The notes beneath the pieces are model-generated. The model made no database searches. It was not told the origin of the DNA and was given only the letters and a program-made list of their open reading frames with translations. Positions 54,448 through 60,319 of a stretch of DNA of 64,000 bases are shown here, piece by piece (position 1 is the stretch's first letter; each line of letters starts with the position of its first letter). The position numbers and the translations under genes are program-made. Source of the DNA: a virus; the IMG/VR virus record IMGVR_UViG_3300009593_000014, positions 1 to 64,000 of that record; one strand, given 5' to 3'.

Positions 54448-55578
54448 ATGTCTATCAATGTTTACCCGATGAGGGATGATCTGCTCAAAGCCTTGACCGA
54501 AGGTCAGGCAATATATTGGAACTCATCAACCTACTCTCCAAAAGAGGGCTATGGTTACGCATACTATAAATACACTCAGGCATTAAACAAGTTAGGAATT
54601 CACTGCATAACTCAATCAGACTTTGCACCAGAGCTAATAGATCTCTCTCATATTGTCAAATACGAAATGCTGTACGATGAAGGTCTTGAGCCTCCTTTGA
54701 TTAACCACTGCCTACCTGAAATGTACTTACACACTAATTCTTACAATATAGGAATGACATACTGGGAGACAGACGCTGTTCCAAATCACTGGATAGATTT
54801 TATGTACCGAATGGATGAAATATGGACTTCATCAAAGTATGTAAAGGATGTTTACCTAAAACAAAATGTAAACGAAAAGATATTTGACTTCAATCAAGGA
54901 ATTGATCCAGAGATATATAAAGTAAATTTCAATGAACCAGAAAGAGAACAGTTTACTTTTTTATCGTTCGGATCTCCCTCGTCTAGAAAGAATGCTCAAT
55001 ACACATACGATGCATTTATGGAACTCTTCGGGGGTGATGAAAGATATCATCTCATAATTAAATCATCTGGACCTTCGGATGTCAGGAATATACAAGAAGG
55101 AGTAAACCTAGGTGCTGTAAAGAATAGCTCTCAAGTAACAGTAATTGAAGAAATGCTGTCGGAAGAAGAAGTTGCTCAGCTATTAAGAAGCGTGCATTGT
55201 TTGGTGTACCCAACATCAGGAGAAGGGTGGGGATTGGTTCCCTATTCCGCAATAGCCAGCGGGACCCCTACAATATGTACCAACGCTACGGCGTGCGAAG
55301 AGTATGCCGAGCTATCAATACCAATAGACTACACATGGAAAGAGCCATGGCAGGCTGCCGGTGTCTATTCTCATGGTGGGAAGTGGGCAATGCCTGACTT
55401 AAATCAACTTAGGGAAAAAATGCAAAGCGTTACTGAAAACTACGATGCATACAAAAGCATGACTATTAGATCAGCACAGACTTTGCAAAATACACATACT
55501 TGGGATAGGGTTGCTTTGAAAATGGGAAAACATTTGGTAGACTCTGGAATTATAAGCCAAATAAAAGTAGGAAAGTAG
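54448..55578 (+). CDS. GT4-like glycosyltransferase (paralogue)
   Basis: A 376-residue glycosyltransferase. FLSFGSPSSRKNAQYTYDAF and YPTSGEGWGLVPYSAIASGT carry the nucleotide-sugar site. Close similarity to the minus-strand glycosyltransferase at 51052 shows duplication with inversion. It heads a sugar cassette with the dehydratase and GT69-like genes and is likely translated from a leaderless transcript. Confidence 0.85.
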   Translation: MSINVYPMRDDLLKALTEGQAIYWNSSTYSPKEGYGYAYYKYTQALNKLGIHCITQSDFAPELIDLSHIVKYEMLYDEGLEPPLINHCLPEMYLHTNSYNIGMTYWETDAVPNHWIDFMYRMDEIWTSSKYVKDVYLKQNVNEKIFDFNQGIDPEIYKVNFNEPEREQFTFLSFGSPSSRKNAQYTYDAFMELFGGDERYHLIIKSSGPSDVRNIQEGVNLGAVKNSSQVTVIEEMLSEEEVAQLLRSVHCLVYPTSGEGWGLVPYSAIASGTPTICTNATACEEYAELSIPIDYTWKEPWQAAGVYSHGGKWAMPDLNQLREKMQSVTENYDAYKSMTIRSAQTLQNTHTWDRVALKMGKHLVDSGIISQIKVGK

Positions 55579-55585
55579 AAAAATT

Positions 55586-56767
55586 ATGAGCAACATTAAA
55601 TGGCCCCTCATAAACAACACAATAGAAGACAATCAAAAGTCTATAATGGCTGACTTCATTATGAACTCAGATCGCTTCACTCAGGGCGAAAAGGTTAAAG
55701 AGTTTGAAAAAAAATGGTCTAAGTGGCAAGGTGCAAAACATTCTGTATTTGTTAATTCTGGAAGCTCAGCAAACTTAATATTACTAGACGCTATAAAAGA
55801 ACTCTACTTTCCAGAGAGAACTCCAAACATACTAGTACCTGCATGCACATGGTCAACAACACTTTCGCCTTTAATTACTTTGGGCTACAATCCTGTATTT
55901 TGTGATGTAAGCCTTAGTGACTATGGTTTTGACGTTACTGGTCGAAGCAGCCAGCCGGGACATCGGGTTGTGAGTGAAGACATAGACATTATATTTTTTA
56001 CCCATCTACTGGGGCTTCCATCAAACGTTTCTTTGATGAAAAGTCTTTTCCCTAACGCAATGGTGCTTGAAGATTGTTGCGAGGCTCATGGTGCATTAGT
56101 GAATGGCAATAAAGTTGGAAACCATGGTCAAGGCTCTACTTTTAGTTTTTACTACGGACACCACATGACAACAATAGAGGGCGGCATGGTGTCAACAAAT
56201 AACGACATACTATATGATAAGCTACTAGCAAAAAGATCTCATGGACTCGCTCGGGAAACTGAGCAACTGAAGTCCGTTAGTAAAAATTATTCAGACATTG
56301 ACCCGAGATTTCTTTTTTTAACAACAGGATACAATGTCAGGAGTACTGAATTAAATGCGGTACTTGGAATACACCAGTTAGACGACCTAGATGAATCCAT
56401 ATCAAAAAGACGTTCAAATTTTATAACATTCCGAACCATACTTCAAGATATTGGTGACATGTTCTTGTTTCCCAAAACAATTGGGAATAGTTCTTTTGCA
56501 CTACCTTTCATGTGCAAGGACGTAGATAAAAACAAGCTAGAGTCGTATTTGCAATCTCAAGGAATTGAGACCAGACCATTCTTGGCTGGCAATATGCTTC
56601 GTCAACCTTTTCTACATTATTTAGATAATGATCCAAAAGACTATCCAAATGCGGAGTTTTTACATAATAATTGTTTCTACATAGGAAACAATCAACACAT
56701 CGGACTAAAAGAACTAAACTGGCTGAATGGAGTGCTGCGTGAATTTTTTAATATGCACAATAGTTAG
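55586..56767 (+). CDS. DegT/DnrJ-family PLP enzyme, sugar 3-dehydratase type
   Basis: A 393-residue aspartate-aminotransferase-fold enzyme. FVNSGSSANL binds PLP phosphate, LEDCCEAHG supplies the Asp for PLP, and FSFYYGHHMTTIEGGM sits where aminotransferases have the Schiff-base Lys. Here that position is His (192/193), as in ColD and the E1/DdhC dehydratases that make 3-deoxysugars. So sugar 3-dehydration is more likely than transamination. It overlaps the next gene by 41 nt. Confidence 0.85.
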   Translation: MSNIKWPLINNTIEDNQKSIMADFIMNSDRFTQGEKVKEFEKKWSKWQGAKHSVFVNSGSSANLILLDAIKELYFPERTPNILVPACTWSTTLSPLITLGYNPVFCDVSLSDYGFDVTGRSSQPGHRVVSEDIDIIFFTHLLGLPSNVSLMKSLFPNAMVLEDCCEAHGALVNGNKVGNHGQGSTFSFYYGHHMTTIEGGMVSTNNDILYDKLLAKRSHGLARETEQLKSVSKNYSDIDPRFLFLTTGYNVRSTELNAVLGIHQLDDLDESISKRRSNFITFRTILQDIGDMFLFPKTIGNSSFALPFMCKDVDKNKLESYLQSQGIETRPFLAGNMLRQPFLHYLDNDPKDYPNAEFLHNNCFYIGNNQHIGLKELNWLNGVLREFFNMHNS

Positions 56768-57446
56768 AAATCGTGCCCAACGACTACCTATGTGGGAAAG
56801 TCAACTATCAGAACTAACAAAAATGCGACCCGATGACTCTTTTGAGCTATCTGTTTACGAAAACGACTCAGATGATGATTCCTTGGCTACTTTGATGTCT
56901 TTTGGTTATGAAGGATTTGACGCTGTTCGTATAAAAACCGAAACACTTAACACACCATATTTTGGAAGCGTTCAGGACTCAGAAAGAGTGCGACTGCTTG
57001 CCAATGCAAGAAACCAATGCTTAGACTATCACAATCTAAAGAAATTTGATAAAATAATTTTTGTTGAACCCGATGTTGAATATAAGATACCAGAAGTGTT
57101 GGAAATAATTAACCTAGATGCTGACATAGCTTCAGGCAAGACAGTGACCTTCGGTTCAGATATAGTTTACGACACTTGGGCAACCAGACTAAACTGGCTA
57201 GATAAGGAATGGGACAACACATACACCGGATCAGGCTGGATAAAAGTATGGTCAACATTTAATGGGTTCTGCGTATACAACGCCGAGCCGTTTTATTTAC
57301 ACAATGCAAGATTTTCAGGCGGGGATTGTGATACAGTACAGATATGTAAAGAATTTCAAAACTTAGGGTATAGTGATGTTTACTTCAATATGGACATTGA
57401 AATACTTCACCATACTGACAGTACTGAATATCAAATAGGAATATAG
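56727..57446 (+). CDS. GT69/CMT1-like glycosyltransferase
   Basis: A 239-residue GT-A-like protein. VYENDSDDDSLATL, LANARNQCLD and KIIFVEPDVEY (metal-binding acidic motif) resemble the fungal CAP59/CMT1 mannosyltransferase family, which also occurs in phages. NGFCVYNAEPFYLHNARFSG forms the acceptor side. It overlaps the dehydratase gene by 41 nt. It probably transfers the sugar made by that enzyme or a hexose. Confidence 0.75.
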   Translation: MECCVNFLICTIVRNRAQRLPMWESQLSELTKMRPDDSFELSVYENDSDDDSLATLMSFGYEGFDAVRIKTETLNTPYFGSVQDSERVRLLANARNQCLDYHNLKKFDKIIFVEPDVEYKIPEVLEIINLDADIASGKTVTFGSDIVYDTWATRLNWLDKEWDNTYTGSGWIKVWSTFNGFCVYNAEPFYLHNARFSGGDCDTVQICKEFQNLGYSDVYFNMDIEILHHTDSTEYQIGI

Positions 57447-57459
57447 AAATGAGGAGGAA

Positions 57460-58452
57460 ATGATAGATGGGTTGGCTTTACACCCCCGACACTTATCAGT
57501 CTGCTCTGGTATCGGGGGAATCGACCTTGGACTTGAAGCAGCACTCGGAATTCGCACCGTGGGTCACATCGAAAGGGACGCTTTCGCAGCGAGCATTCTC
57601 GTGGAGAGGATGGTTGAACAGACCTTGGATTTCGCGCCTATTTGGGACGATATCAAGACCTTCGATGGCTCAGGATGGAGTGGATGTGTGGACATCCTAT
57701 CTGCGGGAATCCCATGTCAGTCTTTTTCGCATGCCGGTAACAGGAAGGGAACAGATGACCCAAGATGGCTTTGGCCTGACGTTTATAGAATTAGTAAGGA
57801 CTGCAGGCCGGGCCAGATCTTTATTGAAAACACACCGGGACTTGTCAAAAAAGGACTTTATGAAGTTCTCTTCGATCTTGCCGAAATGGGGTACAATGCG
57901 GAATGGGGAGTGTTCAACGCAAGTGACGCATCCGCGCCCCATAGAAGACAACGCTTATTCCTTTTGGCCCACCACAGCGAACTCGACCTACAGCCATGGA
58001 TTGAACAGGCCAGCGCTTGCACAGAGCTTAGATACAGTGCCATGGGCGACTCCTACTGCGAATATCTGGAAAGAGACTGGTCCAAACATAGACTGGGATA
58101 TGCGAGACCAGAACAGGATAACGAATTTAGCGGTTCAGGCAAAGCTATGGCCTACTCCAATCACAGTGGACAGTTTAGGAGGCCATCGTCTGACCGGGAA
58201 AAACAAAGACGCAAAAAACATTGGTCTTTCTCTTACGGACGCTTCCCACCTGCACGAAACGACGCAGAAGGATGGTCAAGATGGGTCGAACGAGGACTAC
58301 CTAAACCCATCATTCGTGGAGGCAATGATGGGTCTGCCCATAGGGTGGACAGACTTCGGACCCTTGGAAATTCAGTAGTACCACAATGCGTAACATTGGC
58401 ATATACTGTATTATTAGATAGAATGTCTAGTGAACCACAACCAGTGAGGTAA
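57460..58452 (+). CDS. C5-cytosine DNA methyltransferase
   Basis: A 330-residue m5C methyltransferase. Motif I VCSGIGGIDLG, motif IV AGIPCQSFS (catalytic Cys), motif VI ENTPGL, motif VIII APHRRQRLFLLA and motif X LRTLGNSVVP are in order, so the enzyme looks complete. A variable region (residues about 175-270) would hold target recognition. The GAGGAGG before it is only two bases from this ATG, closer than ideal. Its DNA also encodes a second long frame. It may protect phage DNA from restriction. Confidence 0.9.
   Translation: MIDGLALHPRHLSVCSGIGGIDLGLEAALGIRTVGHIERDAFAASILVERMVEQTLDFAPIWDDIKTFDGSGWSGCVDILSAGIPCQSFSHAGNRKGTDDPRWLWPDVYRISKDCRPGQIFIENTPGLVKKGLYEVLFDLAEMGYNAEWGVFNASDASAPHRRQRLFLLAHHSELDLQPWIEQASACTELRYSAMGDSYCEYLERDWSKHRLGYARPEQDNEFSGSGKAMAYSNHSGQFRRPSSDREKQRRKKHWSFSYGRFPPARNDAEGWSRWVERGLPKPIIRGGNDGSAHRVDRLRTLGNSVVPQCVTLAYTVLLDRMSSEPQPVR
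57467..58378 (+). CDS. 303-residue protein in +1 frame of the methyltransferase gene
   Basis: An open frame of 303 codons lies entirely inside the methyltransferase gene. Its ATG is nine bases after GAGGAGG, the better spacing of the two starts. It reads MGWLYTPD, LNRPWISRLFGTISRPS, LPKWGTMRNGECS, several W-(A/P)-T-P blocks and LNPSFVEAMMGLPIGWTD. The last two kinds of motif are, as I recall, conserved in phage proteins beside or within cytosine methyltransferases. Either it is a real overlapping gene, or the conserved pattern is a by-product of the methyltransferase codons. Confidence 0.5.
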   Translation: MGWLYTPDTYQSALVSGESTLDLKQHSEFAPWVTSKGTLSQRAFSWRGWLNRPWISRLFGTISRPSMAQDGVDVWTSYLRESHVSLFRMPVTGREQMTQDGFGLTFIELVRTAGRARSLLKTHRDLSKKDFMKFSSILPKWGTMRNGECSTQVTHPRPIEDNAYSFWPTTANSTYSHGLNRPALAQSLDTVPWATPTANIWKETGPNIDWDMRDQNRITNLAVQAKLWPTPITVDSLGGHRLTGKNKDAKNIGLSLTDASHLHETTQKDGQDGSNEDYLNPSFVEAMMGLPIGWTDFGPLEIQ

Positions 58453-58454
58453 AA

Positions 58455-58610
58455 ATGCCAAAAGTAAATACAAAGAAAAAAAAGCCAATCCTTGCACATT
58501 GCTTAAGGTGTGGATGGTATATTGGTAGAAAGATACTATCAAGGGACAACAACGAATGCCCGATATGCGAAGAAGAGATCGAGGAGAATTTTAAATGGAT
58601 GGAAGAATAG
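58455..58610 (+). CDS. Small zinc-ribbon protein
   Basis: A 51-residue basic protein (start MPKVNTKKKK) with CLRCG and CPIC pairs about 22 residues apart, a zinc-ribbon arrangement. The GAGGT before the ATG is well placed. It starts two bases after the methyltransferase stop and overlaps the next gene by 16 nt. Confidence 0.7.
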   Translation: MPKVNTKKKKPILAHCLRCGWYIGRKILSRDNNECPICEEEIEENFKWMEE

Positions 58611-59239
58611 GGGCATACTTTAATTCAAAATTTGTAGAACTTATTGACCCTAGCCTTGTAAATACCATATTTGAATTAGGAGCAGGAGATGGGCTAGACG
58701 CTATTAAGCTGAGTGAGTTTTATGACGCTGATGTTTGTGGCTTTGAATGCAACGCCAACCTATTAAAAATATGTACAGATAGGATTCTTGATTTCGATAG
58801 GGTTCGTCTAGAGCCTCAAGCAGTCTGGAGCGAAACAAAGATAATACCTTACTATCCAGTCATTAACGGAAACGACTCTGCTTCGTCTTGCTTCATGGCG
58901 GCTGATGCCTATCCATACGAACACTATATACAAGAAGAAACAACAGTTGAGGCAATAGCCCTAATGGACTTCATAGATAGTACAGATATCAAACCAGACA
59001 TGCTGTGCATCGATCTTCAGGGGGCAGAAGAGCATGCGCTCATAGGTATGGGACAGTACTTGGAAGATGTAAAGTATATAATAACAGAAGGACAGACCTC
59101 CTGCATGTATCACGGAGCATCAACAATCTTTGATATAGGACACCTACTGACTCAGTGCGGTTTTGTAATGAAACACTCCGAGTCAGTAAACGAATGGTAC
59201 GGAGATTATTTATTTGTAAACGAAGAGAAAGTGAATTAA
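58595..59239 (+). CDS. FkbM-type SAM-dependent methyltransferase
   Basis: A 214-residue methyltransferase. IFELGAGDGLDA is motif I, VCGFECNANLL supplies the acidic SAM residue, and MLCIDLQGAEEHALIGM matches the FkbM signature (IDVEGaE-like). FkbM enzymes methylate sugar hydroxyls. With the nearby glycosyltransferases and dehydratase it would finish a modified sugar. GAGGAG lies upstream. Confidence 0.82.
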   Translation: MDGRIGAYFNSKFVELIDPSLVNTIFELGAGDGLDAIKLSEFYDADVCGFECNANLLKICTDRILDFDRVRLEPQAVWSETKIIPYYPVINGNDSASSCFMAADAYPYEHYIQEETTVEAIALMDFIDSTDIKPDMLCIDLQGAEEHALIGMGQYLEDVKYIITEGQTSCMYHGASTIFDIGHLLTQCGFVMKHSESVNEWYGDYLFVNEEKVN

Positions 59240-59240
59240 C

Positions 59241-59573
59241 ATGGAAGATATAACACACCCAGAAAATAATAACATTTCAAGAAAAGACGGAAGTCAATTC
59301 TGGTATGAACTTAGCGAAGCCAATCCTGATGCCATTCTTTTTGATGGACCGGGCGATGATGATTTTTTTGATTCATGCATCGTAGGTTACGCTTGGAGAA
59401 TAAATATGGAACCTGTTGTTGTTTATGATGAAGAAAAAATGATAGAAGTAATGATGTTTGAAGGAGAGCTATCCTATGAAGAAGCAGTCGAATATTTATC
59501 TTTTAATACTTTTGGCAGTTGGTTTGGAGATGGAACTCCTCTTATATTGAGATCATCAAAGAATGTACTGTAA
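59241..59573 (+). CDS. Hypothetical phage protein
   Basis: A 110-residue acidic protein. The combination SCIVGYAWRINMEPVVVYDEE and YEEAVEYLSFNTFGSWFGDGTP is seen in small proteins of many actinophages, function unknown. It starts one base after the FkbM gene stop and ends overlapping the DpdA-like gene (TAATG). Confidence 0.65.
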   Translation: MEDITHPENNNISRKDGSQFWYELSEANPDAILFDGPGDDDFFDSCIVGYAWRINMEPVVVYDEEKMIEVMMFEGELSYEEAVEYLSFNTFGSWFGDGTPLILRSSKNVL

Positions 59574-60319
59574 TGAAGGAAGCGGAGTTTTTCTTAGGCT
59601 GCCCCGAGCCTTATTGGTTGCGTAGAGATGATGTCACTGGTCCCTTCTTTGTGTCCAGACCGAGATTAGCAAGGCTTAAGAATCTTCATAAATCCAAACA
59701 CAAATGGGCACTAGATTCAGGCGGGTTTACGCAGTTACATCAGCATGGGGCTTGGACAATCTCCTCGCAAGAATATGCCAACTTTGTAAAAAGATGTGAC
59801 GACGAGATTGGCAATCTAGAATGGGTAGCGCCACAAGACTGGATGTGTGAAGAAACAGCACTTCGTAAGAGTGGGTTAACCGTTAAGGAGCATCAAGATC
59901 GAACGGTTGATAACTTCTTAGATCTTAGACAAAAACTAGGCTCACTTGTTATTCCAGTCCTTCAGGGGTGGGATCGTGATGATTATCTAAAGTGCTGTGA
60001 TTTATACGAGAAAGCCGGTGTGGATCTATCTTTAGAAAATGTTATAGGCTTAGGAAGCGTCTGCAGAAGGAATGCAGACAAAGAAATATCTGAGATAATC
60101 GACACTCTGCAGCCACTTAATCTTCACGGTTTTGGAATTAAAGGAAAATCCTATGTAGACAACTACAATAAATTAGTATCTGCAGACTCAATGGCTTGGT
60201 CATTTACCGCTAGGCATTCAGATCCATTGCCCAACTGTAGCCATAGGAAATGCAGTTGGTGCTATGAATATGCAGACCTTTGGAGGGGTCGGATACTGAG
60301 TAGACTTGCGCCTGTTTGA
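59573..60319 (+). CDS. DpdA/TGT-like (7-deazaguanine) transglycosylase homologue
   Basis: A 248-residue protein, start ATG within TAATG. KWALDSGGFTQLHQHG, WVAPQDWMCE, VIPVLQGWDRDDY, SVCRRNADKEI, HGFGIK and SADSMAWSF match the compact TGT-like proteins of phages related to DpdA, which exchange guanine for 7-deazaguanine in DNA. A Cys cluster (CSHRKCSWC) near the end mirrors the TGT zinc site. No queC/D/E or folE gene is visible, so the base might come from the host. Confidence 0.75.
   Translation: MKEAEFFLGCPEPYWLRRDDVTGPFFVSRPRLARLKNLHKSKHKWALDSGGFTQLHQHGAWTISSQEYANFVKRCDDEIGNLEWVAPQDWMCEETALRKSGLTVKEHQDRTVDNFLDLRQKLGSLVIPVLQGWDRDDYLKCCDLYEKAGVDLSLENVIGLGSVCRRNADKEISEIIDTLQPLNLHGFGIKGKSYVDNYNKLVSADSMAWSFTARHSDPLPNCSHRKCSWCYEYADLWRGRILSRLAPV

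Follow-up and report, generated by a model that had tools for sequence, protein, structure and literature searches.

Two overlapping frames of a viral locus appear to encode the two chains of a split C5-cytosine DNA methyltransferase

We find two long genes, alpha and beta, in different frames of the same viral DNA and conclude, from comparison of their sequences with those of relatives, that the locus very probably encodes a single C5-cytosine DNA methyltransferase divided between two proteins. The window, that is, the whole stretch analyzed here, comprises 64,000 nucleotides and forms part of a source virus record of 85,154 bases. In the proposed enzyme, alpha would be the catalytic large domain, with AdoMet binding, the catalytic cysteine, and motif X, while beta would supply the variable target-recognition region (TRD) and motif IX in trans. 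These last two parts together form the small domain that reads DNA in ordinary single-chain C5 enzymes. Both proteins would be translated from behind one ribosome site and would assemble into an active methylating enzyme, which, to judge from phage methyltransferases in general, may protect phage DNA from host restriction. The features of the locus are as follows:

57452-57457, + strand: AGGAGG ribosome-binding site, common to the alpha and beta starts
57460-58452, + strand: alpha gene, frame 0, 330 aa; catalytic chain of a C5-cytosine methyltransferase, holding motifs I-VIII and X and lacking IX
57467-58378, + strand: beta gene, frame +1, 303 aa; putative target-recognition (variable) region and motif IX; fully nested in alpha
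57712-57720, + strand: alpha motif IV, PCQ, with the catalytic cysteine C86; P85, C86, and Q87 invariant in the alpha alignments
57965-58300, + strand: variable region in which beta-frame constraint is dominant; beta residues 167-278, with WPTT/WATP/WPTP repeats
58301-58351, + strand: motif IX in the beta frame, LNPSFVEAMMGLPIGWT; beta residues 279-295
58357-58386, + strand: motif X in the alpha frame, RTLGNSVVPQ; alpha residues 300-309

The two chains and their start sites

ATG 57460 starts 330 codons (stop 58452), and ATG 57467 starts 303 codons in the +1 frame (stop 58378). The original prediction had described the longer gene as a complete cytosine methyltransferase, although the motifs that it named (I, IV, VI, VIII, and X) did not include IX. 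Its assignment as a C5-methyltransferase holds, with a match of alpha residues 12-187 to PF00145 at 6.8e-34, but the chain is not complete: motif IX is absent from alpha, and the pattern LNP..E..MG.P.GW sits in the +1 frame instead, so that alpha departs from the usual PF00145 enzyme, which has motif IX and the recognition domain in the same chain. Motifs I, IV (PCQ), VI (ENV-like), and VIII (QxRxR-like) stand in order, with C86, E123, N124, R163, and R165 invariant in the alpha alignment; within motif X, G303 is invariant and N304 invariant or nearly so. Against PHROGs v4, alpha matches phrog_363 at 2e-59. Both its sequence and its predicted fold resemble the large domain of M.HhaI and M.HaeIII, enzymes that differ from alpha in being single chains whose one frame also encodes the recognition domain and motif IX. 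The predicted structure shows a confident large domain (residues about 10-200) and a motif X helix, with pLDDT below 50 at residues 205-261 and 282-301, and it matches best, over about 175 residues, the folds of the HaeIII and HhaI methylases, at a TM of about 0.45 by either length, as would be expected of a model with the small domain missing. The alpha frame opposite the beta variable region looks like a weakly constrained linker. At three loci (L006, L022, and L027), this part of alpha encodes a cysteine-rich, zinc-ribbon-like stretch (CxxC...CxC...CxxC), and alpha is thus more than a linker there.

The C-terminal end of beta holds the motif IX missing from alpha (LNPSFVEAMMGLPIGW). The segment LNPSFVEAMMGLPIGWTD fits motif IX in position and pattern and is followed by alpha's motif X in the other frame; P281, E285, M288, G289, P291, G293, and W294 are invariant in a 32-row beta alignment. 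We identify the end of beta as motif IX by way of a bridge, the class B relatives described below, where motif X is immediately preceded, in the methyltransferase frame, by the same sequence. A profile of beta matches two class B alpha chains (6e-13 and 1e-10) and the single chain of prophiGD91-2 gp27 (5e-17), and, compared with three canonical methyltransferases, it aligns at motif IX in a match too short to be significant (probability 0.1). The AlphaFold2 model of beta alone has a pLDDT of 53 and is confident only at the motif IX helix (about 90), and conservation is weak toward the N terminus of beta. In PHROGs v4, beta residues 76-296 match phrog_1008 at 3.6e-20; both phrog_1008 and phrog_363 are named "DNA methyltransferase," and the match suggests that phrog_1008 holds the second subunit and not the catalytic one. 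No family was found for beta in Pfam or NCBIfam, where a profile search gave scattered single matches only, and a profile search of PDB sequences returned no match. Repeats of the form [WLYFIV]xTP number 0 to 8 per beta, with many in gp81 of the Arthrobacter phage Chocolat (L230), and their number might relate to recognition.

The alpha and beta starts lie 7 nt apart in the window, and the single AGGAGG precedes the first by 2 nt and the second by 9 nt, as originally described. The claim that ribosomes should therefore use the embedded frame was too strong: in relatives the ribosome site is usually separated from the alpha start by 4-6 nt and from the beta start by 8-10 nt, a spacing that makes use of both starts plausible. 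This layout of one site and two starts recurs in many relatives. At 82 of 94 loci beta has M and then W within three residues, near the alpha start, and at 43 of these 82 an alpha-frame start codon lies 4, 7, or 10 nt upstream of the beta start (exactly 4 nt in 34). One ribosome site for two starts would link the expression of alpha and beta.

Relatives with the same parts in other arrangements

A search with beta found 52 viral loci, and, where ORFs were recovered among them, a C5-methyltransferase ORF adjoins beta in the other frame (in class B, partly in the same frame). A second sample was drawn using only patterns built on alpha motifs IV and X; each of its 79 distinct viral loci has a beta match in the +1 frame, the weakest best match being 8e-26. 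This sample is not wholly free of choice by beta, because the alignment behind the patterns included loci first found via beta. Stop codons, whose frequent occurrence in the +1 frame of relatives had been named as an objection to the pair, were looked for, and the frame is unbroken. Copies carried by plasmids or prophages are found in Leptospira, Bacteroides, Lacticaseibacillus, Shinella, Roseicitreum, and the archaeon Methanomethylovorans, and a scan of genome contigs with beta gave a single MAG contig. The public record is uneven: RefSeq E. coli prophages have alpha alone annotated, and a Roseicitreum plasmid (L211) and a Pseudomonas phage (L222) have the beta frame alone, alpha having been missed.

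In the loci read by hand, every motif is found once across the two frames. Class A has the layout of the window, with motifs I-VIII and X in alpha and the TRD and motif IX in beta. In class B (L025, L041, L044, L045, L048, and L052), motif IX lies in the alpha frame directly before X. Class C has an alpha that stops after motif VIII, with the recognition region, IX, and X in a +1 ORF that overlaps it in part; the members are the Mycobacterium phages Catdawg (alpha gp6, beta gp5) and Peaches (gp77 and gp76), Gordonia phage Jumbo, and Streptomyces phage phiBT1 (gp9.1 and an unannotated ORF at L229:1036-1965). The phiBT1 record notes gp9.1 as possibly inactive, a label to be set against the next ORF, which from its sequence appears to be the missing other half. 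A further arrangement is that of prophiGD91-2 gp27, in which motifs I-VIII, beta-like repeats, IX, and X are joined in one chain and a residual nested +1 ORF is left. Whether beta homologues exist outside full nesting, a question raised with the original prediction, is answered by Catdawg gp5, Peaches gp76, and Chocolat gp81. A tree of the alpha core groups the class C rows with every class B row except one (support 94) and places L201 as a separate class B case amid class A rows, giving four class changes overall on a tree whose root and several branches are weak. In three single-chain methyltransferases, frame 0 contains motif IX and the +1 frame has no long ORF; their neighbors are a restriction enzyme gene (two) and a DUF3883 gene (one).

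These arrangements bear on whether beta could be a real protein of another kind, a regulator or anti-restriction protein overprinted on alpha and standing outside the enzyme. We consider this very unlikely. Such a protein would agree with the lack of a Pfam or NCBIfam family for beta, but beta accompanies alpha in all loci read and carries exactly what alpha is without, and classes B and C and prophiGD91-2 swap these parts with alpha or join them to it. We give even chances to a wider claim built on the split enzyme, namely that a whole C5-methyltransferase lineage is obligately dual-coded, the TRD, IX, and X having moved between frames while the complete set was kept. The lineage so understood spans phages and mobile elements whose hosts are Proteobacteria, Firmicutes, Actinobacteria, Spirochaetes, Bacteroidetes, and cyanobacteria, together with one archaeal plasmid.

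Selection on the two frames

Across the family, alpha and beta are each read from an open frame that is conserved and subject to purifying selection; because the window gene is without a close relative, we infer selection on that gene from the family. When the synonymous codons of frame 0 were shuffled 500 times, the longest +1 open stretch averaged 113 codons and reached 303 in none of the 500 shuffles, which bears out the original observation of two long overlapping reading frames with 303 stop-free codons one frame over. The longest open stretch in the +2 frame of the window gene is only 40 codons. Among the 79 alpha-selected loci, the +1 open length gave p below 0.05 in 70.

Conservation was measured in 90 representatives below 75% identity, with the alpha amino acids fixed and synonymous codons shuffled. 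The +1 frame had a mean z of 4.55, with about 20 at motif IX, where values reached 53, and, beyond motif IX, z was high at the WPTP and TMRNG stretches. The mean z of the +2 control was 1.88; since the shuffles model no ancestry and inflate z by about 2, as judged from this control, the fair reading is the excess over it. In the reverse test, with beta fixed and alpha examined, the mean z was 11.1. The second objection named at the outset, that methyltransferase codons might fully explain the constraint, was checked in this way, and the conservation of beta exceeds the level that alpha imposes.

Substitutions were counted in about 50 close pairs, each sequence being used once, and expressed as shares at alpha codon positions 1/2/3; more divergent pairs mixed frames in the variable region, and closer pairs were used for the counts. 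The shares were.28/.18/.54 in motifs I-IV and.32/.17/.51 in motifs V-VIII,.59/.20/.20 in the class A variable region (TRD) and.57/.20/.23 in class A motif IX, and.22/.12/.65 in the motif X region. Because alpha position 1 is beta position 3, constraint moves from frame 0 to frame +1 past motif VIII and returns to frame 0 at motif X. The chi-square p values for the switch were about 1e-82 and 1e-54, figures that overstate certainty because related sites are non-independent. In class B, where motif IX lies in frame 0, its shares were.29/.16/.55, which is alpha-like (class A versus class B, p 4e-6). Together, the frame tests and the homologues support the original proposal of a true overlapping pair with a target-recognition partner.

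The switch could also be expected if programmed ribosomal frameshifting past motif VIII carried translation from frame 0 into +1 and so yielded one fused enzyme, for frame 0 dominates up to VIII and +1 afterwards, and the class C alpha stops just past VIII. We judge this very unlikely for the following reasons: In class A, motif X is again in frame 0, and two shifts would be required. The beta columns facing alpha 35, 41, 67, and 77, which lie upstream of any shift site, have z of 10-15. Finally, beta has its own start, with the M-then-W pattern conserved as described above. A passenger reading of the +1 ORF, under which methyltransferase codons alone would account for its openness and conservation, is hardly credible. 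The two frames do use common bases, and in some G+C-rich loci the +1 open length by itself is unremarkable (p of 0.05 or more in 9 of 79), but the conservation of beta is far above the alpha-imposed level, substitutions switch frame along the locus, three ordinary methyltransferases do without a long +1 ORF, and beta homologues occur as genes overlapping in part only.

Known split enzymes and the surrounding genes

The split methyltransferase proposed here has its closest counterpart in our comparisons in M.EcoHK31I, whose small gene is nested in the large gene in another frame. M.EcoHK31I (YGGCCR) is a two-polypeptide C5-methyltransferase (Lee, Kam and Shaw 1995, via PMC3404938); in that account, the large polypeptide has motifs I-VIII and X, the small polypeptide has motif IX, and the recognition domain is placed in the large subunit as a prediction only. 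Compared on the described division of motifs, alpha and beta of the window divide them identically. The systems differ in that the variable-region constraint of class A relatives falls in the beta frame and not in the large subunit as described there, and in that the window beta has 303 aa and spans almost all of alpha. What would be new relative to M.EcoHK31I is that beta also has the recognition region, that it is fully nested, that the starts are twinned, and that the pair occurs widely in phages. A search of plasmids with both chains yielded no system identified as EcoHK31I-like. The AquI type, with IX and X both in the small subunit, is divided much as the class C relatives are, whereas in the window motif X stays in alpha and beta is nested. 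A literature search did not find the phage family described, which is no proof of absence, most subscription papers lying outside the search.

To our knowledge, long same-strand overlaps with both frames selected are rare outside small viruses, and in the alpha/beta overlap functions can be named for both frames. The layout recurs in phages of very different hosts, and the second protein is usually unannotated; one frame is usually all that annotation retains, so that many phage methyltransferases enter the record as a single subunit.

About 1 kb past the methyltransferase pair, positions 59519-60319 of the window encode DpdA (DeoxyPurine in DNA protein A; PF23859, 9.7e-73), a second DNA-modification gene near the pair. 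No QueC or QueD-type family was found across the 85-kb record, so that the base may be host-derived, or the genes may lie outside the record. Just upstream of alpha, at 54448-57446, two glycosyltransferase-like genes (GT4-conflict; CAP59_mtransfer) flank a DegT/DnrJ aminotransferase, and an FkbM-type methyltransferase lies just downstream of the pair, at 58595-59239; these genes are a possible sugar-modification cluster. At about 52 kb of the window, the GC skew reverses sign, going from about -0.14 to about +0.09, possibly marking a switch in transcription direction or a boundary between genome modules.
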